40,625 nt of DNA, taken from the IMG/VR virus record IMGVR_UViG_3300027852_000023, positions 1 to 40,625 of that record; one strand, written 5' to 3'. Position numbers and translations under genes: made by a program. Under the pieces are notes generated by a model. It was not told the origin of the DNA. It searched no databases and worked only from the letters and a program-made list of their open reading frames with translations. Within the stretch, counting starts at the first letter, position 1; each line of letters opens with the position of its first letter. Positions 6,449 to 40,625 of this stretch are shown here, one piece after another. Source of the DNA: a virus.

Positions 6449-7689
6449 ACGTGAATACCTCCAAGCGTAGAAAATCCTATACCACTTACATTATACCTTA
6501 ACCCGTCAAGTCTGTGATAGTCCGCCTTGTCTTTTATCTTCTCGGTTGGCTGACCGTATTCGTCAAGTACCCTTGAGTAGGTCCCAAGTTCATCAAGCAT
6601 TCCCTTACACGTATCGAACACAAATAACCGCCTACTCTTGAATAGCTCAATCACCCGGTCGATTCCCGCTTCGACATTCGTTATCTGCGTGGCTTCCACT
6701 GGTACACCCTCAGCCTGCCAGTCCCACCTCTGCTGCTGTTCGGACTTAGCCCCACCAATCCATCGGATGACGTTCTCGCTCTTTTTATAAGCGAGTGCCA
6801 TGATAGCGTGTTCTTTGGTCGTCTTACCACCTCTCAAGGAACAGCGGTAAATATAGAAACAGTGAGTATTTGGGTCTTCCGCAATCCACACTAAAGCTGT
6901 ATTCACTGCCCCAAAGTCTATGCCTACATATCGCGGCCATTCTGCTGGAATGTCAAACGGTTTTATCTTCTGCGTCGTTTCGTCATAATCGGAATATATT
7001 AGTCCTGCTGGTCTCTCGAATGTGCCATCATAGAACATGTGAAACTTCCACGCAGGTAATATCCGCTTCATCCTGTCATACTCTTCACGAGGAAATATCG
7101 GGTTCATTATCGACTTGAAGTTGATTATCTCAAAGTCAGTATCACCTGCAGCCCACCTATCAAATACTTCTGTTTTTAGCCAGCCCAAGTTATAAGGTGT
7201 AGTAGTACCAAGTGCTCTGCCACCGTAAAGAGATAGCCTGCGCTGGACCGCTTCCCATGCACCCAGCTTGAATTTATCCTGACCGCACTCGTCCAACCAT
7301 GCACCTTTAGCCGTTGCACTTTCAAGTCCGCCCTCTGCATCTGCTGACCTCAATATTATCCTTGATTCACCATTAGATAATACCCTATCGCTTGCCTTGT
7401 ATTCCCAGCCCGGGATATAACCACCGAACACGCTCTTTAGTTCCGGGAGCATTTTCATCTTGAAAAGGTCATAAGTTGCTGTAACTGCCAGGTAGTCCCC
7501 CGCCCCGCGCGTTTCTATTTCTTTGTTCAGCCACCATGGGCCGTAACAAGTTTTTCCTGATTGCGTCCCTGCGATAATAAAAGGGAATCTGGCTTTGCTG
7601 TCATGTGCCCTTGTCTGTCCAGGATGATACCTTATTTTATATTCAATACCATCTGATGTCTCTGTTTGAGTTATAAACTCAGTCGGCAT
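6445..7689 (-). CDS. terL: Terminase large subunit
   Basis: 414 residues. Walker A is GTQSGKT (residues 41-47) and the Walker B-like strand is GAWLDECG (Asp133, Glu134). The C-terminal RNase H-fold nuclease starts YVGIDFGAVNTALVW (Asp258), with a later acidic site at DYHRLDGLRY. It drives ATP-dependent packaging into the portal and cuts the concatemer. The start overlaps the preceding gene by 11 bases and has only a weak ribosome binding site, so translational coupling is likely. The packaging type cannot be judged from this sequence alone. Confidence 0.95.
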   Translation of the reverse strand: MPTEFITQTETSDGIEYKIRYHPGQTRAHDSKARFPFIIAGTQSGKTCYGPWWLNKEIETRGAGDYLAVTATYDLFKMKMLPELKSVFGGYIPGWEYKASDRVLSNGESRIILRSADAEGGLESATAKGAWLDECGQDKFKLGAWEAVQRRLSLYGGRALGTTTPYNLGWLKTEVFDRWAAGDTDFEIINFKSIMNPIFPREEYDRMKRILPAWKFHMFYDGTFERPAGLIYSDYDETTQKIKPFDIPAEWPRYVGIDFGAVNTALVWIAEDPNTHCFYIYRCSLRGGKTTKEHAIMALAYKKSENVIRWIGGAKSEQQQRWDWQAEGVPVEATQITNVEAGIDRVIELFKSRRLFVFDTCKGMLDELGTYSRVLDEYGQPTEKIKDKADYHRLDGLRYNVSGIGFSTLGGIHV

Positions 7690-15585: not shown

Positions 15586-16328
15586 TATTGATCCTTTTCT
15601 AATTCATAAATAATTTTTGCGTCTTTACCTGTATGTAATCGCCACGTCTTACCATCATTTGATGGTACCAATCCATCGTTCCACAATTTTATTCCTGCGG
15701 AAAAATTGAATTTATATTCAATATCAAAAAACTCTGAAATATAACACCAGACCGAATCCCCGACCGAATCCCAGACCGAATCCCTGGCCGAATCCCAGAC
15801 CGAATCCCCGACCGAATCCCAGACCGAATCCCTGACCGAATCCCTGACCGAATCCCTGACCGAATCCCCGACCGAATCCCAGACCGAATCCCCGACCGAA
15901 TCCCTGGCCGAATCCCCGACCGAATCCCCGACCGAATCCCTGACCGAATCCCTGACATTAATAAACTCTTTCAGTAATTTAATGTGTTCTTGTGTTACTT
16001 GTTCAACTTCTTTCAATTCAAATGGGTTTACAATCTCTTTTACAATAAGTGGTTTTACTATCTTCTTGAAGTCAAGCGCTTTTACCCACTTTTCAACCTG
16101 TACCCTATCGTCTACGTCAGAATTTATCTGATCTACATTAAATTCTTTTGTCAGTGGATTGAACTCGTACTTATTACAAATATCCTCATTTAGCTTATAG
16201 TGCTTGCATATCATTGAGTGACTATCACATTCGCCTGATATGTCTTTCTTGCGTTGATTCCAATTAAAGTAAAATCGTTCTCCGCCCCTACTGTCTGGCT
16301 CTGTTACAAAACTAAAAAACTGGCACAT
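15585..16328 (-). CDS. Protein with 17 tetrapeptide xDSV repeats
   Basis: 247 residues, AAGGAGG before ATG 16328. The N-terminal domain (CQFFSFVTEPDSRGGERFYF, HSMICKHYKL) is followed by 17 four-residue units of R/G/W-D-S-V (two end in A) and a C-terminal region starting WCYISEFFDIEYKF. The repeats come from a 12-bp DNA repeat, so the frame survives copy-number change. Similar xDSV runs occur in phage and bacterial proteins of unknown function and may form a helical or solenoid spacer. It sits between ssb and the recombination-like genes. Confidence 0.8.
   Translation of the reverse strand: MCQFFSFVTEPDSRGGERFYFNWNQRKKDISGECDSHSMICKHYKLNEDICNKYEFNPLTKEFNVDQINSDVDDRVQVEKWVKALDFKKIVKPLIVKEIVNPFELKEVEQVTQEHIKLLKEFINVRDSVRDSVGDSVGDSARDSVGDSVWDSVGDSVRDSVRDSVRDSVWDSVGDSVWDSARDSVWDSVGDSVWCYISEFFDIEYKFNFSAGIKLWNDGLVPSNDGKTWRLHTGKDAKIIYELEKDQ
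15751..15954. repeat. 12-bp minisatellite, 17 units
   Basis: Units read N-GG-GAT-TCG-GTC on the coding strand. Only the first base of each unit varies freely (A, G or T, never C); the other eleven are fixed except two GTC to GCC changes. Confidence 0.95.
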
Positions 16329-24211: not shown

Positions 24212-24403
24212 CTATTTACACTTTTCGCATACTGTAATTTCTTTTGCTATTTCCCAGCCCGCACCGCCATTGTCAATTATTTTGCTCTTTACATCCAATG
24301 GGTTTTCTCTTCGCATCGGATATATTTTCTCTCGCTTTTCAACAATTATCTTTATCGGTTTTCCTGCTTGTGTTGCACCACATCTTGCACATTTAAAAGA
24401 CAT
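24212..24403 (-). CDS. Small zinc-finger protein in the lysis cassette
   Basis: 63 residues from ATG 24403 with GGGAGAATT upstream; a longer frame to 24493 lies within the lysozyme gene. Cysteine pairs CARCG at the start and CEKC at the extreme end enclose a basic beta region (KPIKIIVEKREKIYPMRREN). Unknown role. Confidence 0.62.
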   Translation of the reverse strand: MSFKCARCGATQAGKPIKIIVEKREKIYPMRRENPLDVKSKIIDNGGAGWEIAKEITVCEKCK

Positions 24404-24411
24404 AATTCTCC

Positions 24412-25296
24412 CTATAAATATTTCACGTATCTTTTGCTGACGTACCCAATAAAACCACCCTCGTATTTTGATGGTGTAAATACTGGAAGCCATGTAATTC
24501 CTGACGCTGGCTCATAAATCGTTGCGCCTGCAATCTGAAGAACCTCTCCATGCTCTACTATTAAAGTCTTTATATGTGGATTGTAAACAGGTTCAGGGCG
24601 GAATCGTAAGAAACTGGAAGCGGTAATTTCTACATAGTCCGCTGATGGCTCTGGATCGGGTATCTCTCCCATCCCCGCATAAGCAAGCAGGTCGATTAGT
24701 TCGCCATTGAAATAGTTATGATCGATCACCTTTCCGTCTACTTCAGTTGTATCGCTGAACTGGTGGATCTTCCACTCTGTAAAAGGCGGGGGCAGGTATA
24801 TGTTCTCTGTGGGGTTGTATTGCGCTAACCATAAATCATAATCGGTTGACCATGCAGGACTGCCAACGTTATCACGCCAGATATAATAGCCAGTGTAGAT
24901 AATTGGCTTTCTTCCGAACAGTCTTTCAATTTCCTGAAGGCAGGTTAGAATGTGGCCTGAATTGAAATATGGGTTATTTGCATTCTCGATGTCAAGAGCA
25001 GGAGGCAAATCAAAATTACCTCGCGTTGCTTCCCAGAACTCCTGTGCCTGTCTTTTTGGCTCACACCATATCTGTTGATTATCTAGGTTTGGTATTGTTT
25101 GACGGTAGTACCAGTAGCACCCTGTTAATAATCCATTATCCTTTGCCAGCTTTACATAGTCTTGAGACCGATAATCTCTCCACCCTTCTCCCGCTTTAAT
25201 TATTATAAATTTACCGTCCTTTGCTTTTAGTGCCTCGTAGTCCAACACCCCTTGGTATCCCTCGTGTGCATCAAATCCGAGCGTAAAATTATCCAT
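24412..25296 (-). CDS. GH25 lysozyme with SH3-like C-terminal domain (endolysin)
   Basis: 294 residues. LGFDAHEGYQG (Asp9), KFIIIKAGEG and PPALDIENANN (Asp102, Glu104 catalytic pair) define glycoside hydrolase family 25, which cleaves the peptidoglycan glycan chain. Residues from about 220 onward (YVEITASSFLRFRPEPVY ... GFIGYVSKRYVKYL) fit a bacterial SH3 wall-binding domain. No signal peptide, so holin dependent. Its ribosome binding site (GGGAG) lies inside the end of the homing-endonuclease gene. A 5' fragment of a related lysozyme gene lies on the other side of that gene. Confidence 0.92.
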   Translation of the reverse strand: MDNFTLGFDAHEGYQGVLDYEALKAKDGKFIIIKAGEGWRDYRSQDYVKLAKDNGLLTGCYWYYRQTIPNLDNQQIWCEPKRQAQEFWEATRGNFDLPPALDIENANNPYFNSGHILTCLQEIERLFGRKPIIYTGYYIWRDNVGSPAWSTDYDLWLAQYNPTENIYLPPPFTEWKIHQFSDTTEVDGKVIDHNYFNGELIDLLAYAGMGEIPDPEPSADYVEITASSFLRFRPEPVYNPHIKTLIVEHGEVLQIAGATIYEPASGITWLPVFTPSKYEGGFIGYVSKRYVKYL

Positions 25297-26049
25297 CTAA
25301 ATCTCCCGCACCCTTTTTAGATTGTGTATTTTGTCATAATAACCATTTTTTACATTTCGCACCGTATCTCTACAAACACACGCATATTCAGCCACTTTTG
25401 TTTGTGACAAGTTCTTATTTAATAACCATTGAACTTTCAATACCGTTTCCTTTTTTATAACGTTTGCCTTGCGGATTCTCATAATAACTTCTGCTGTATG
25501 AGTTCTTCCATAAAATGGGTTCTCTTTTCCGCAACGTTTTTCCTTATTTGCTAAAGATATTTTTAGGTTATGTTCAAGAGAACACTTTTTACCTTTGTTT
25601 TTTAAAGATAAGAGCTCTTTCGTTTCTTTTGTATGGTGCTTACCAAAAAAGTGATTATTTTTACCGCTTTGATTAGGCATGCTTTTGCGCCTTTTATCAA
25701 TAGATTCTTGCGAACGCACAACCCCTTTTTGGCTATCCACACATTCTAAACAAATATTATAAAGTAAACTTTTCTTTTTATATCTATCCACAAAAGATTG
25801 TTCATATCTTGTTAATTCAAAAGGCTCGCAATAAACAAGTACTTCAAAAATAAAGTCTTTTCTCCTATGCTTATTGAAAGAATTTTGCAAATAACTGTTT
25901 CTATGTTTATTATTTTTCAGGTTTGCCCAATGATGTCTTTTCCTATCATTCAAATCAATGCTTTGTCCAACATAACAAACCCCAGTTACAATATTTCTGA
26001 TTTGATATATTCCGCAATTCAAGTTATTCGCCACAGAACGTTTATTCAT
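25297..26049 (-). CDS. GIY-YIG homing endonuclease with NUMOD3 repeats and HTH
   Basis: 250 residues. GIYQIRN (13-15) and CYVGQS (26-28) open the nuclease domain, with Arg36/Arg38 and Glu83 as likely active-site residues. NUMOD3-type motifs are KNNHFFGKHHTKETKELLSL and KENPFYGRTHTAEVIMRIRK. The C-terminus is helix-turn-helix (LSQTKVAEYACVCRDTVRNV). The gene is clearly more A/T-rich than its surroundings, a sign of transfer. It is a free-standing homing gene, inserted at codon 31 of a lysozyme gene. Confidence 0.93.
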   Translation of the reverse strand: MNKRSVANNLNCGIYQIRNIVTGVCYVGQSIDLNDRKRHHWANLKNNKHRNSYLQNSFNKHRRKDFIFEVLVYCEPFELTRYEQSFVDRYKKKSLLYNICLECVDSQKGVVRSQESIDKRRKSMPNQSGKNNHFFGKHHTKETKELLSLKNKGKKCSLEHNLKISLANKEKRCGKENPFYGRTHTAEVIMRIRKANVIKKETVLKVQWLLNKNLSQTKVAEYACVCRDTVRNVKNGYYDKIHNLKRVREI

Positions 26050-26056
26050 AATAGTA

Positions 26057-26152
26057 TTATATCATTTGATATTCAGCGCCGCCCTTTGCTTTTAGGGCAT
26101 CATAATTTAACTTACCTTGATAATGTTTTGCTGCATCGTATCCAAGTATCAT
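26057..26152 (-). pseudogene. 5' fragment of a GH25 lysozyme gene, cut by the homing endonuclease
   Basis: 31 codons from ATG 26152, with TAGGATATAG upstream: MILGYDAAKHYQGKLNYDAL KAKGGAEYQMI, then TAA. It aligns with the first 33 residues of the intact lysozyme (LGFDAHEGYQGVLDYEALKA K), and AAAGCAAAG is shared at the DNA level. The frame is lost at the point where the intact protein reads FIIIKAGEG. It follows the tail-fibre gene directly and keeps a good ribosome binding site, so this was probably the original start of the lysozyme gene. Confidence 0.82.
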
Positions 26153-26161
26153 TTCTATATC

Positions 26162-27658
26162 CTATAATTCTGCAGTACAAGTAAACCCCTTTGTTGTCGC
26201 ATCTGCGTAAAAGAACGTATCGCCTGCCGCTGTTGAGTTGGAATAAAGTGAGAGAAAATTAACTCTGCTGATATTTACCGTTGGCTGTGCGCAATTCTGA
26301 ACAACCCATACCCCAACTACCGTACAGGTTGGTGCTACTCTCATAGGCACTTGATAGTAATAGGTAAATATTATACTGGTAACGGCTCCAGGGGCTGTAT
26401 AACGTGTAAAAAACGCAAGCGGGGGCGTAGCTTCGCCCCAATCTTCTGTATAAAATCTGAGGCATAACTCTGTCTCGTCTGTAATTATTCTCGGTACAAA
26501 ATCTGTTGCCGTTTCCCCAACCTCTAATTTAACCCCCGTGATATAAATAGCGTCATCAACTACCCCATCAGTTTGGTCACAGAAAATAAATACAGCCAAG
26601 TTTGCCATTGAAGCCGTGTCAATAGAGATATTTTCAATCGTGAAAGTTTGCCATGAAGTAGTTAGCGTGTTAGAAGCAGGCGTGTTCTCGCCTGTCCAGT
26701 TAGCCACATAAGTTGGAGTTGCTAACCAGGCATTTACTACATCAGAAGTTACCGTATCAGCTGCACCATCCCACGCAAGCACGATTGCCTTTAATGAATG
26801 AGTATTGTCGTCTGCCGCAGCCATCCTTGCCTGAAAAGACAGGGACGCTTTCATTCCCGCAAATGCCATAGCGTCTTTATTTTCAAGAATCTGCAATATA
26901 CCAAACTGTTTATTAGCAGTCTCTACTTCTAATTTAATAGAAGCCTTTGCTCCGTCTGGAATTGTAGTTGTTTCTTGTGAAACATCCACAATGTCATTAC
27001 CGTCTGATAGCAATATCCATCTATCCAGCAAATAGGTATCGTCACTATTTAATGGAGAAGTAGTAGCGTCAAAAGTTGTGCCTCTTTGTCCCACTCGAAA
27101 GCCACCATTAATGATAAAGTTTTGTCCAATTCCAGCACCGCCAGCATTATCATCTACATACTTTTTTATACTTTGTTGTGTTGCCAGCGCAGATGCTGAA
27201 TCAGAACCCATAGCATCTTCATCTAACACAGTCCACTGACTGAATGCCATCCACGCAGTAAGCGTTTCATCATAAATCAGAAAGGCAAAGTCATGGGAAT
27301 CGTCAAGAGTAATATCCACGCTTCCATTACACAGAATATTATCCTGATTGTGCCTGATAACAATAGTCCTATCTGTGTGGTCTGGGCGGAGGATTAGAAT
27401 AGTCCCCTCTTCAATATTCCCGCTGATTGTGATTGTGTCAAGGTTATCACTTGCTGCATCCGCAAGAGTATCAACCGTGTGAAAGTTCTGTGTTACCGTG
27501 ATTGCGCCGGCAGCGTCAATAGTTAATTCCGTTGCCTCGACAAATGACAAGGTGTTCCAGATTTCCTCTTGGTTGGTTTGCAACGTGTTGACGTGGGCAG
27601 CCATTACATCGTCCACCGCGTCTACCTTCGGGGTGAGATTTAATATTGATCGTGCCAT
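26162..27658 (-). CDS. Tail fibre / receptor-binding protein
   Basis: 498 residues beginning MARSILNLTPKVDAVDDVMA, with an anchor-like helix (VNTLQTNQEEIWNTL). A beta-rich shaft with THVDT-like repeats follows, then KKYVDDNAGGAGIGQNFIIN GGFRVGQRG and a carbohydrate-binding-like module (YLLDRWILLSDG, SFQARMAAADDNTHSL, VKLEVGETATDFVPR). The GGFRVGQRG...LDRW pattern is common in phage fibre proteins. Probably a distal adhesin. Confidence 0.82.
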   Translation of the reverse strand: MARSILNLTPKVDAVDDVMAAHVNTLQTNQEEIWNTLSFVEATELTIDAAGAITVTQNFHTVDTLADAASDNLDTITISGNIEEGTILILRPDHTDRTIVIRHNQDNILCNGSVDITLDDSHDFAFLIYDETLTAWMAFSQWTVLDEDAMGSDSASALATQQSIKKYVDDNAGGAGIGQNFIINGGFRVGQRGTTFDATTSPLNSDDTYLLDRWILLSDGNDIVDVSQETTTIPDGAKASIKLEVETANKQFGILQILENKDAMAFAGMKASLSFQARMAAADDNTHSLKAIVLAWDGAADTVTSDVVNAWLATPTYVANWTGENTPASNTLTTSWQTFTIENISIDTASMANLAVFIFCDQTDGVVDDAIYITGVKLEVGETATDFVPRIITDETELCLRFYTEDWGEATPPLAFFTRYTAPGAVTSIIFTYYYQVPMRVAPTCTVVGVWVVQNCAQPTVNISRVNFLSLYSNSTAAGDTFFYADATTKGFTCTAEL

Positions 27659-37080: not shown

Positions 37081-37554
37081 TTAATCACTAATCATCGAGG
37101 GTAACCCATCGCCTGCATAACGTGGCAGGACTTGATAAGTTACGGCTACAATGTTTGAAGCGTTTGATGCGCCTACGGCTGCGGCTAAGCAGTCATAAGC
37201 CCCAAGGATTGAAGGATCAATCACAAAGACAACCAGCTTGTTGGCTAATCCTACGTCAAGCGTGTAGTTTGCTGCGTCTGTTGCTCTTGTGAATATGTCA
37301 GTCGTGCAATCCAGGTTATAGTAAATCGGGAAGGTTGCCGTAACAGCCGCCTCTCCAGTTGCAGCAACATCAGTTGCTTTTGTCAGACTGAGAACCGCTT
37401 GTGCAGCGTTTCCCTGCGTCATGTGAAAGATAACCAGCACCTTGTGCGCCAGTTTTAGGCTAATGTAATCACCAGCCAAAGCTCCCGCATTAGTCTGCGG
37501 TTCTAGTGCTTGAATTAATCCCACTTCTTCCGGGATCATAAAGTTTTTACTCAT
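37081..37554 (-). CDS. Decoration-like capsid protein, second of tandem pair
   Basis: 157 residues, same length as the neighbour at 37567-38040, and clearly homologous: KLAHKVLVIFHMTQGNAAQA / KLAHKIWVVFHMAQGHAAQS, YNLDCTTDIFTRATDAANYT and ASNASNIVAVTY. Beta-sandwich pattern without enzyme motif. Encoded directly downstream of the major capsid protein, the usual place for decoration or cement proteins. Confidence 0.75.
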   Translation of the reverse strand: MSKNFMIPEEVGLIQALEPQTNAGALAGDYISLKLAHKVLVIFHMTQGNAAQAVLSLTKATDVAATGEAAVTATFPIYYNLDCTTDIFTRATDAANYTLDVGLANKLVVFVIDPSILGAYDCLAAAVGASNASNIVAVTYQVLPRYAGDGLPSMISD

Positions 37555-37566
37555 GTTTTATCTCCT

Positions 37567-38040
37567 TTAATCAATAATCACCGATGAAGGTGTCGCCTGT
37601 TTGTAGCGATTGTCTAAGACGTAGGTACAGCCAACGATATTCAAAATGTTGGAAGCTCCGGCATAACCTTTTACACAATCAAAACCAGATGAGAACTGAG
37701 AAGCGTCAAACTGAAATACTACCAGTTTTGTTTTCAATGCAACATCAAGCTCGTATGTTGCCGCGTCTGTTGCCCTCGTGAAAATATCGGTATCACAATC
37801 CAGGTTGTACCAGATTGGATGCGTTTCTGTAACTACTGCTGCATCCGTTCCGGCTACATCCGTTGCTTCATACAGGCTTAATGTGGATTGTGCGGCGTGT
37901 CCTTGTGCCATGTGAAATACAACCCATATCTTATGCGCCAACTTCATACTCACCCAATCACCGGCAATGGCCGCAGTGTTTACCTGTGGCTTAAATCCGT
38001 TTATTAATAGTCCGCCTTGCGGTAATTGTAGGTTACTCAT
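37567..38040 (-). CDS. Decoration-like capsid protein, first of tandem pair
   Basis: 157 residues starting in a TAATG overlap with the major capsid stop. LINGFKPQVNTAAIAGDWVS MKLAHKIWVVFHMAQG and YNLDCDTDIFTRATDAATYE define the family shared with 37081-37554. Likely expressed at high level together with the capsid protein. Virion location is inferred. Confidence 0.75.
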   Translation of the reverse strand: MSNLQLPQGGLLINGFKPQVNTAAIAGDWVSMKLAHKIWVVFHMAQGHAAQSTLSLYEATDVAGTDAAVVTETHPIWYNLDCDTDIFTRATDAATYELDVALKTKLVVFQFDASQFSSGFDCVKGYAGASNILNIVGCTYVLDNRYKQATPSSVIID

Positions 38041-39341
38041 TATCGTGTCTCGATCCCAATGAACGGGCTGAGTGTTACTGCACTATTCGCTGGGGTTAAT
38101 GTTCCTGGCCATGAAGGCTGTCCGTCCACTCGATATACGAACCGGAAGCAAGTTTCATCAGTCACAAACTGAACGTGAATCGATGTTGCTTTCTGCATGG
38201 TGCCTTTGTCAATCAGCCAATACTGTGAGAGGTCGGCAAAAATAATATCGCCTACCGTTCCGACAGTCTGGCAATGCTCAACAGGAATCACCGGGCGGCC
38301 ATATAGTGTCGCATACGGTGAAGCGGATAATCCGCCTGCAGGCAAGTAAACTGGTACACCAGTCGCGCCCACTGCCACATACATACTGTGAAGCTGTGGC
38401 TCACAATCCTGATTGATCAGCCATACGCCATTCTTGCGAAGTGGCGCAAACATTCTTGACCACATATTTACGATATTCTCGCTAACAATAGTGTCAGCAG
38501 GCTGTCCTGCTTCTTCTGCGATTGCGATAAACGATGGGGAATTGACAATACCTAAAGGCTGTCCTGCACCCGTTCCGTTGATAATCGCTGCTTCCACCTG
38601 GTACGTAAATTCCATTTGGAACGCCCAAGAGATGATTGATTCTAATGCAACCGCGTCTTGAAGTAACTCGTCAGTAGCGTAGCAAAGACCAATCAGCTTG
38701 TTTAGTTCAAGTAAGATCTGGCCGAATGTTGGATTGCTTGCGACTTTCGTTGCACCTTCTGCTTTCCAATAAGCCAATACTCCACCCCAACGAGAGCCGT
38801 CTGCTCGACTGCCTTCGTCAAGATAGTTTGCCCGTAGGCTGTTTGAGTTTGCTGAAATAGGCATCCTCTTAACCCGGCTCATAATTTCGCCTTCAGCGAA
38901 CACAAGTTTAAGCATTTCTGATGCAAAATCTTCCTGCACCAAGAACCCACCATCGGCGGGTACGCCTTCGCTCATTCCGGTCTGCTTCATTTCTACCAAG
39001 CGGGGGTCCATATAACCACGCCCGGATGATTTGGCAATACTTTGCAGTTGCTCGCCTAAGCTCTTGAAGCCCATAGACCCTTGAGAAGGAGGAGCGTCTG
39101 CTGCCATACCTTGTATAGCGGCTTTTGTTCCTAATCCTTCAGTTAAGAAAGCTGCCTGCTCTTCTAGTTGCATAGCGACTTTCAGCTTTCCTGTTAAGTC
39201 AGTAGCTTCTGCTACCAGATTACTAATTTCGTCTGCAACCTCGGACGGCATTTCATCTTCCTTGCCCTCCCATTCATCAGAAATTAGGCTGGCTTTGCCA
39301 ACCACTGCTTGTAGTTTTTCTCTAATACTTTCAATGTTCAT
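38040..39341 (-). CDS. Major capsid protein, HK97 fold
   Basis: 433 residues. Residues 1 to about 110 are helical and charged (MNIESIREKLQAVVGKASLI, KLKVAMQLEEQAAFLTEGLG), resembling the delta/scaffold domain removed by the protease. The mature part begins near SLGEQLQSIAKSSG and contains GGFLVQEDFASEMLKLVFAE, RVKRMPISANSNSL, AYWKAEGATK and GGGLSASPYATLYGRPVIPVE-like LYGRPVIPVEHC, standard for HK97-like capsids. Encoded right after the protease. Confidence 0.95.
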   Translation of the reverse strand: MNIESIREKLQAVVGKASLISDEWEGKEDEMPSEVADEISNLVAEATDLTGKLKVAMQLEEQAAFLTEGLGTKAAIQGMAADAPPSQGSMGFKSLGEQLQSIAKSSGRGYMDPRLVEMKQTGMSEGVPADGGFLVQEDFASEMLKLVFAEGEIMSRVKRMPISANSNSLRANYLDEGSRADGSRWGGVLAYWKAEGATKVASNPTFGQILLELNKLIGLCYATDELLQDAVALESIISWAFQMEFTYQVEAAIINGTGAGQPLGIVNSPSFIAIAEEAGQPADTIVSENIVNMWSRMFAPLRKNGVWLINQDCEPQLHSMYVAVGATGVPVYLPAGGLSASPYATLYGRPVIPVEHCQTVGTVGDIIFADLSQYWLIDKGTMQKATSIHVQFVTDETCFRFVYRVDGQPSWPGTLTPANSAVTLSPFIGIETR

Positions 39342-40422: not shown

Positions 40423-40625
40423 CTAATCCTTATAACAAACTGTCATATCAAATCCAGCACCATTTGTGCCGTCTGTGCTGTTCTGTATTCTTACAATCAA
40501 GCCATCGTTAGCGTTCATCCCTCTTGCCTTCGGGAAATTGAATGCACTAAAGTCTTTCGCGCTTCCAGCAGAAAAATCAAACTCAGAGGTATGATATTGT
40601 GGTTCATCTCTCCAGCATAAATAAG
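40423..40625 (-). CDS. 3' end of the boundary-crossing beta-helix gene
   Basis: Same frame as 1-1379: residues ...EFDFSAGSAKDFSAFNFPKA RGMNANDGLIVRIQ ... MTVCYKD, stop TAG at 40425-40423. Bases 40499-40625 duplicate 1-127. Eight bases separate the stop from the protease start. Confidence 0.88.
   Translation of the reverse strand, partial: YLCWRDEPQYHTSEFDFSAGSAKDFSAFNFPKARGMNANDGLIVRIQNSTDGTNGAGFDMTVCYKD
40499..40625. repeat. Terminal direct repeat, right copy
   Basis: Exact copy of 1-127; see that entry. Confidence 0.95.

Follow-up and report, generated by a model that had tools for sequence, protein, structure and literature searches.

A GIY-YIG homing endonuclease gene between a lysozyme gene start and a rebuilt lysozyme gene in a phage genome: a probable cassette with a replacement 5′ end

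The window, the whole stretch of 40,625 nucleotides analyzed here (IMG/VR record IMGVR_UViG_3300027852_000023), carries on its minus strand a lysozyme gene start, hereafter the stub (26152-26078), followed by a homing endonuclease gene (HEG; 26049-25297) and then by an intact lysozyme gene of glycoside hydrolase family 25 (GH25; 25296-24412). The features of this locus are given in Table 1. The arrangement is largely the one that an earlier note had read from the letters of the DNA: the native ribosome binding site (RBS) is retained before the fragment, with a weaker duplex than that of the lysozyme; the gene between fragment and lysozyme matches the Pfam families GIY-YIG and NUMOD3; and the intact lysozyme directly downstream has a homologous but diverged start, with its RBS inside the endonuclease end. 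The fragment itself had been described as 31 codons of lysozyme. While the stub ORF (26152..26057) indeed comprises 31 codons, only the first 25 are lysozyme-like, and the last six belong to the insert. The lysozyme ORF (25296..24412) encodes 294 aa, and its ATG follows the HEG stop codon immediately, without a gap.

Table 1. Positions of the features at the lysozyme locus of the window, in the direction of transcription.
Feature	Positions	Strand	Basis
Native lysozyme RBS AGGA, now preceding the stub	26160..26163	-	Sequence; 16S tail duplex -4.0 kcal/mol
Stub, native lysozyme codons 1-25 (MILGYDAAKHYQGKLNYDALKAKGG)	26078..26152	-	Likeness to L001 and L025 starts
44-nt direct repeat, upstream copy (stub end)	26079..26122	-	Repeat search of the window
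Foreign end of the stub ORF, AEYQMI (six codons) plus stop TAA; left insert end	26057..26077	-	Likeness to L001 and the downstream lysozyme stops here
HEG, GIY-YIG catalytic domain and NUMOD3 repeats, I-TevI-like	25297..26049	-	Pfam, PHROGs, PDB sequence matches, GC
RBS GGGAG of the downstream lysozyme, within the HEG 3′ end	25303..25307	-	Sequence; duplex -7.4 kcal/mol
Rebuilt lysozyme 5′ end, 28 codons (MDNFTLGFDAHEGYQGVLDYEALKAKDG), stub-homologous, diverged	25213..25296	-	46/69 nt, 15/23 residues compared to stub
44-nt direct repeat (75%), downstream copy, HEG-flanking	25214..25257	-	Repeat search of the window
Lysozyme body, GH25 barrel and C-terminal domain	24412..25212	-	Pfam Glyco_hydro_25, GH25 PDB folds, L025 C-terminal DNA match

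The product of the HEG (250 aa) matches GIY-YIG (Pfam, 4.4e-8) as well as NUMOD3 (7.1e-13, in two stretches), and comparison with PDB sequences revealed matches to the I-TevI structures 1mk0, 1ln0, and 1i3j, with the catalytic arginine in register with 1mk0, while 1ln0 has an alanine at that position. The GC content of the gene (0.319, compared to 0.423 for the genome) lies within the lowest 0.25% of 753-bp windows; neither the rebuilt lysozyme 5′ end (0.476) nor the lysozyme body (0.42) is AT-rich. By domains and composition, the gene is an intact, predicted I-TevI-like free-standing GIY-YIG homing endonuclease gene of foreign composition, for which sequence searches returned no close relatives.

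Pairing with the 16S tail amounts to -4.0 kcal/mol before the stub, -1.8 kcal/mol before the HEG, and -7.4 kcal/mol before the lysozyme. The HEG is devoid of an RBS of its own and starts 7 nt past the stub stop codon, and its translation probably relies on re-initiation at the end of the stub. T4 also has HEGs that lack start signals (PMC2988022), and the T4-type seg genes covered there resemble the HEG of the window in encoding GIY-YIG enzymes, in their weak or absent RBS, and in their neighbor-coupled expression. However, seg genes usually lie between intact genes, and the passages covered describe neither a stub nor a replaced gene end, whereas the window has a stub and probably a replaced end.

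The lysozyme matches Pfam Glyco_hydro_25 (E 6.6e-23), and the fold matches from a structure search are GH25 structures. Its acidic residues D9, D102, E104, and D192 are invariant among five relatives, and the rebuilt 5′ end includes the conserved Asp9 together with the first barrel strand (strand 4-11 in the structure model). This rebuilt start is identical to the stub in 15/23 residues (46/69 nt), and the local alignment score of 77, compared to a maximum of 50 among 5000 shuffles, means that the likeness is not due to chance. The final part of the downstream repeat copy, CTAAAAGCAAAGGACGG, is identical to the stub end in 16 of 17 bases, which gives a brief near-identity (CTAAAAGCAAAGGRCGG, 16/17) at the junction. 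When the 25 codons of the stub are joined in silico to the body from its codon 29 onward, a single open frame results, with a length of 291 codons.

I-TevI-type HEGs of phages are often located in group I introns, and this frequency is what speaks for taking the stub as the 5′ exon of a lysozyme gene that is interrupted by a self-splicing intron, or by an intein, with the HEG as its passenger. However, only 28 nt separate the end of the stub homology from the HEG start and 0 nt separate the HEG stop from the lysozyme start, and the HEG is followed by 84 nt of conserved coding sequence that form a 5′ end with a start codon. Furthermore, an Rfam search of 24400-26300 at E values up to 1 gave no match, and thus none to group I intron core RNA, and the intron reading was dropped on this result. 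Stop codons end both the stub ORF and the HEG, so there is no in-frame fusion with exteins and no intein. The difference from an intron or intein that the earlier note had pointed out is thereby borne out, and we regard an element of this kind as extremely improbable.

A single uninterrupted homologue of the locus was found, in the relative L001, whose lysozyme is 61-63% identical to that of the window. The gene starts with MILGFDAHEGYQGKLDYNALKAKGGKFIIIK (MILG...ALKAKGGKF), to which the window stub is 76% identical, and its stub-type features (MILG, QGK, and KAKGG) run straight into the body. A relative with the fragment start fused directly to a full lysozyme had been predicted by the earlier note, and L001 is such a relative, albeit not a close one. 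The identities to L001 of stub (52/69), rebuilt start (52/69), and body (82/120) are overall not separable. At third positions, the stub (16/23) exceeds the body (11/40; P 0.0016), a difference that does not favor stub and body having once formed one gene. Scans of viral and genome sequences revealed no close HEG-free relative of the window phage, only L001 and the stub of L025, and the GenBank phages contain only distant GH25s (up to approximately 35% identity) and no match to the stub peptide. Without a close empty relative, the assignment of foreign and native parts in the window locus is indirect.

L025, a HEG-free relative, harbors a remnant of the lysozyme start (6732-6779) between its tail genes and its lysozyme. 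This remnant is identical to the window stub in 44 of 48 nt, a value that was reached by 0 of 2613 other aligned 48-column stretches. Behind it, with no HEG between, lies a different GH25 catalytic domain that has a start of its own, while the C-terminal domain of the L025 lysozyme is 77% DNA-identical to that of the window (265 nt C-terminal). The stub start thus occurs independently at the same place in L025, which marks it as the native start of this lineage. Start remnants can also arise without an HEG, and they may be retained as translation leaders. Taken as an explanation in itself, the latter idea would have selection keep the stub as a functional leader peptide or translation-coupling element, with a lysozyme likeness that reflects its origin only. 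The high identity between the stubs of window and L025 fits this idea, as do the L025 differences, which create a stronger RBS for the replacing lysozyme (-8.5 vs -4.0 kcal/mol), and the position of the window HEG, without its own RBS, 7 nt behind the stub stop. However, such a role accounts for the retention of the stub and not for its origin, is compatible with a homing insertion, and is drawn from one comparison of a short sequence; as an explanation in its own right, it has a minimal probability.

L025 also bears on the possibility of a module swap, in which another phage supplied the HEG in a single event with the downstream lysozyme or the complete catalytic domain of the latter. Recombination would have been one-sided, with homology at the C-terminal end of the lysozyme and an illegitimate joint at the other, and would have cut the resident gene to its start; the HEG would be a passenger or the trigger, and the entire catalytic part would be foreign, beyond the first 28 codons. 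L025, with the same stub, a different GH25 catalytic domain, and the shared C-terminal domain, is such an outcome without an HEG. Moreover, swaps of lysin N-terminal domains over retained C-terminal domains are known from Bacillus phages (PMC10674732), in which, as in the window, the lysozyme locus is a hot spot of exchange and the C-terminal domain is kept, although the passages covered describe neither an HEG nor a start remnant, and the window has both. The third-position difference between stub and body is in line with a swap as well, and so is the failure of the L001 identities to separate the rebuilt start from the body. On the other hand, rebuilt start and body both resemble L001, and the L001 lysozyme is of the stub's type, which makes a change of module type unnecessary. 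We consider a swap of this kind the main rival reading, a possible but not a probable course of events.

Elsewhere in the window, the start of a DNA methylase gene occurs twice, at 14730-14641 and at 13589-13500, as a direct repeat of 90 nt (87/90). Its 5′ stub is followed by a small ORF and a replication-type gene and then by the intact methylase gene, with no endonuclease. In the relative G013, the methylase precedes the replication gene, which makes duplication followed by loss the simplest account of the methylase stub, and the repeat looks like a recent duplication-and-loss scar. Given the HEG-free stubs of L025 and of the methylase gene, general recombination can leave scars similar to that at the lysozyme locus. 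The methylase case is also what would support an old tandem duplication of the lysozyme gene, in which decay left only a 25-codon stub of the upstream copy and the HEG settled between the copies later. However, two lysozymes at this place were found in none of the relatives, which have one each on contigs that are partly short, and the window stub ends precisely where the HEG insert begins, with no remains of the first copy beyond it. HEG-free relatives with two complete lysozyme genes, which the earlier note had named as the mark of such a duplication, were thus not encountered, and since the L001 sequence reaches just 79 bp upstream, we call the duplication merely unlikely, with a small chance of being correct.

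Filled and empty alleles of a comparable locus were identified in a survey of HEG loci in 18 GenBank phage records, a sample rich in crAss-like phages, in which 51 usable loci were subjected to a flank test. The majority of the surveyed phage HEGs do not have the architecture described here, which is rare: the 5′ and 3′ end-replacing kinds together account for 2 of the 51 loci, with cr112_1 (L045, NC_055881.1) as the one 5′ case. In this phage, an intact GIY-YIG HEG occupies an HKD-nuclease gene, approximately 70 nt after the stub stop, while the same gene is empty in crAss001, PhiCrAssBcn22, PhiCrAssBcn4, and cr106_1. Compared to crAss001, the stub of cr112_1 is identical in 71/75 nt, the rebuilt start in 44/75, and the body past codon 60 at 93%; the first ~150 nt of the body are less identical than the remainder, which is what co-conversion would give. 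A decayed allele, with the HEG reduced to approximately 97 codons, is present in PhiCrAssBcn14 (L057, OQ221549.1). Its stub matches the start of the gene in Bcn22 up to the junction, its rebuilt start is identical to Bcn4 and crAss001 in 43/75 nt, and its body is identical from codon 26 in 105/105 nt (crAss001, Bcn22) and at 97-99% thereafter. For both phages, the rebuilt 5′ end thus agrees with the empty alleles in 43-45 of 75 nt, and Fisher tests of the rebuilt start against the body gave P values of 7e-15 and 1e-13.

Judged against the empty alleles, these comparisons show a native stub, a foreign rebuilt 5′ end, and a native body in these crAss-like gut phages, so the insert brought the HEG and ~22-25 foreign 5′ codons. 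The arms at the empty site overlap by 8-11 bp, and the insertion point lies near nt 64-74 of the HKD-nuclease gene, compared to nt 74 in the window. Kehishuvirus 'tikkala' (L058:1180-1808) contains the mirror image in the form of an HNH HEG in the 3′ end of the neighboring glycoside hydrolase gene: a foreign 3′ end precedes the HEG, the native 3′ end is fused in frame to the HNH protein, and the arms overlap by 43 bp. The HKD-nuclease case and the window are closely alike in their ~25-codon stub, GIY-YIG HEG, diverged restart, and brief near-identity at the junction, while they differ in host gene and phage family. The small number of foreign codons that the crAss cases need, merely ~25, speaks against the arrival of a whole lysozyme module in the window.

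Because the crAss-like phages show the same architecture together with close empty relatives, we read the window locus as a homing cassette with a replacement 5′ end, which probably entered the GH25 lysozyme gene of a phage behind codon 25. The earlier note's proposal that the insert brought its own replacement 5′ end is borne out by the empty, filled, and decayed alleles of the crAss-like phages; for the window itself, in which the identities to L001 are not separable, we infer a foreign rebuilt start on a native body. Such a cassette would carry the HEG, the diverged foreign first 28 codons with their start codon, and an RBS provided by the HEG 3′ end. The enzyme would cut an uninterrupted lysozyme gene close to the stub/body junction, and the break would be repaired from a cassette-bearing genome, with the stub and upstream DNA serving as the left arm and the lysozyme body as the right arm. 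The product would retain both stub and HEG along with a full lysozyme gene. The foreign start would be sufficiently unlike the native one to spare the rebuilt gene from being cut again or lost by loop-out through repeat recombination. In the product, the start signal of the stub would probably feed HEG translation, and the lysozyme would be translated from the site inside the HEG. In more general terms, we see about an even chance that some free-standing phage HEGs are composite elements, which combine an HEG with a spare, recoded version of one end of the gene they target and could invade essential genes near either end without an intron or intein, the recoded end rescuing the gene and giving immunity to both the enzyme and loop-out.

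The known routes by which HEGs persist in essential genes are removal by splicing (introns and inteins), occupation of sites between genes, and splitting of genes that are functional in pieces. A recoded spare end is a further route, which is known for 3′ ends in fungal mitochondria, and the phage cases add 5′ ends with new start signals and account for odd gene-start fragments beside phage HEGs. In the fungi, mitochondrial HEGs carry foreign C-terminal ends of atp6 in Allomyces macrogynus and of atp6, atp9, cox2, and nad3 in Glomus (PMC3630166). These elements and that of the window have in common an HEG in a coding sequence with a diverged gene end, which is foreign in the fungi and probably so in the window, a native end left as a remnant, and an intact rebuilt gene; in the window, the remnant corresponds to the stub (26152-26078), the empty allele to L001, which is not close, and the diverged end to the rebuilt start with its 46/69 nt. 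While the fungal cases concern 3′ ends (C-termini), mitochondria, and mostly LAGLIDADG enzymes, the window case concerns the 5′ end of a phage gene with the HEG upstream of the rebuilt gene, so that, unlike in Allomyces and Glomus, a new start codon and RBS are needed. The window locus would thus be the 5′ counterpart of the fungal 3′-end-replacing elements.

Among phages, free-standing HEGs in essential genes without an intron are exemplified by mobE in nrdA of phage Aeh1 and mobA in T4 gene 60 (PMC2988022). Insertion leaves these genes in pieces and the two polypeptides assemble, whereas in the window the downstream gene is complete again. HEG islands are known as well (PMC10448857). For an HEG that replaces a 5′ end in a phage, open-access text contained no description, which is not proof of absence. 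HEGs can, on this reading, import foreign gene ends and so contribute to gene mosaicism in a small but directed way, and the set of crAss001, Bcn14, cr112_1, and 'tikkala' makes the mechanism testable in phages with cultured hosts.

A likely second HEG case within the phage group of the window, with a stub of only about 10 codons, was identified in the relative G007 (L018, IMGVR_UViG_3300025736_000076). In this contig, an endonuclease VII-type ORF (104-742) opens in frame with the tail-fiber start MARSTLSYVA, which is closest to MARSTLSYIA of L025, and uses the tail-fiber RBS, while the complete tail fiber restarts as MARAILALTP from position 735, 8 nt inside the end of the endonuclease VII-type ORF. 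A GIY-YIG HEG with a MARS start that precedes a gene with a MARTAI start in L023 was not counted, as it was too short and the flank test gave no excess.

Furthermore, additional repeats were observed in the window. Its ends (1-127 and 40499-40625) form a perfect 127-bp repeat, and the contig L004 spans the joined ends, so the window represents a complete genome of 40,498 bp, either circular or circularly permuted. Approximately 16 copies of a 12-nt unit at 15711-15992 (minus strand) encode the repeat DSVGDSVRDSVWD within a 247-aa protein. Finally, two tandem paralogous genes for 157-aa proteins, 69% DNA-identical over 242 nt and present in relatives as well, are located at 37081-38040 (minus strand) and adjoin a capsid-type gene (38040-39341).
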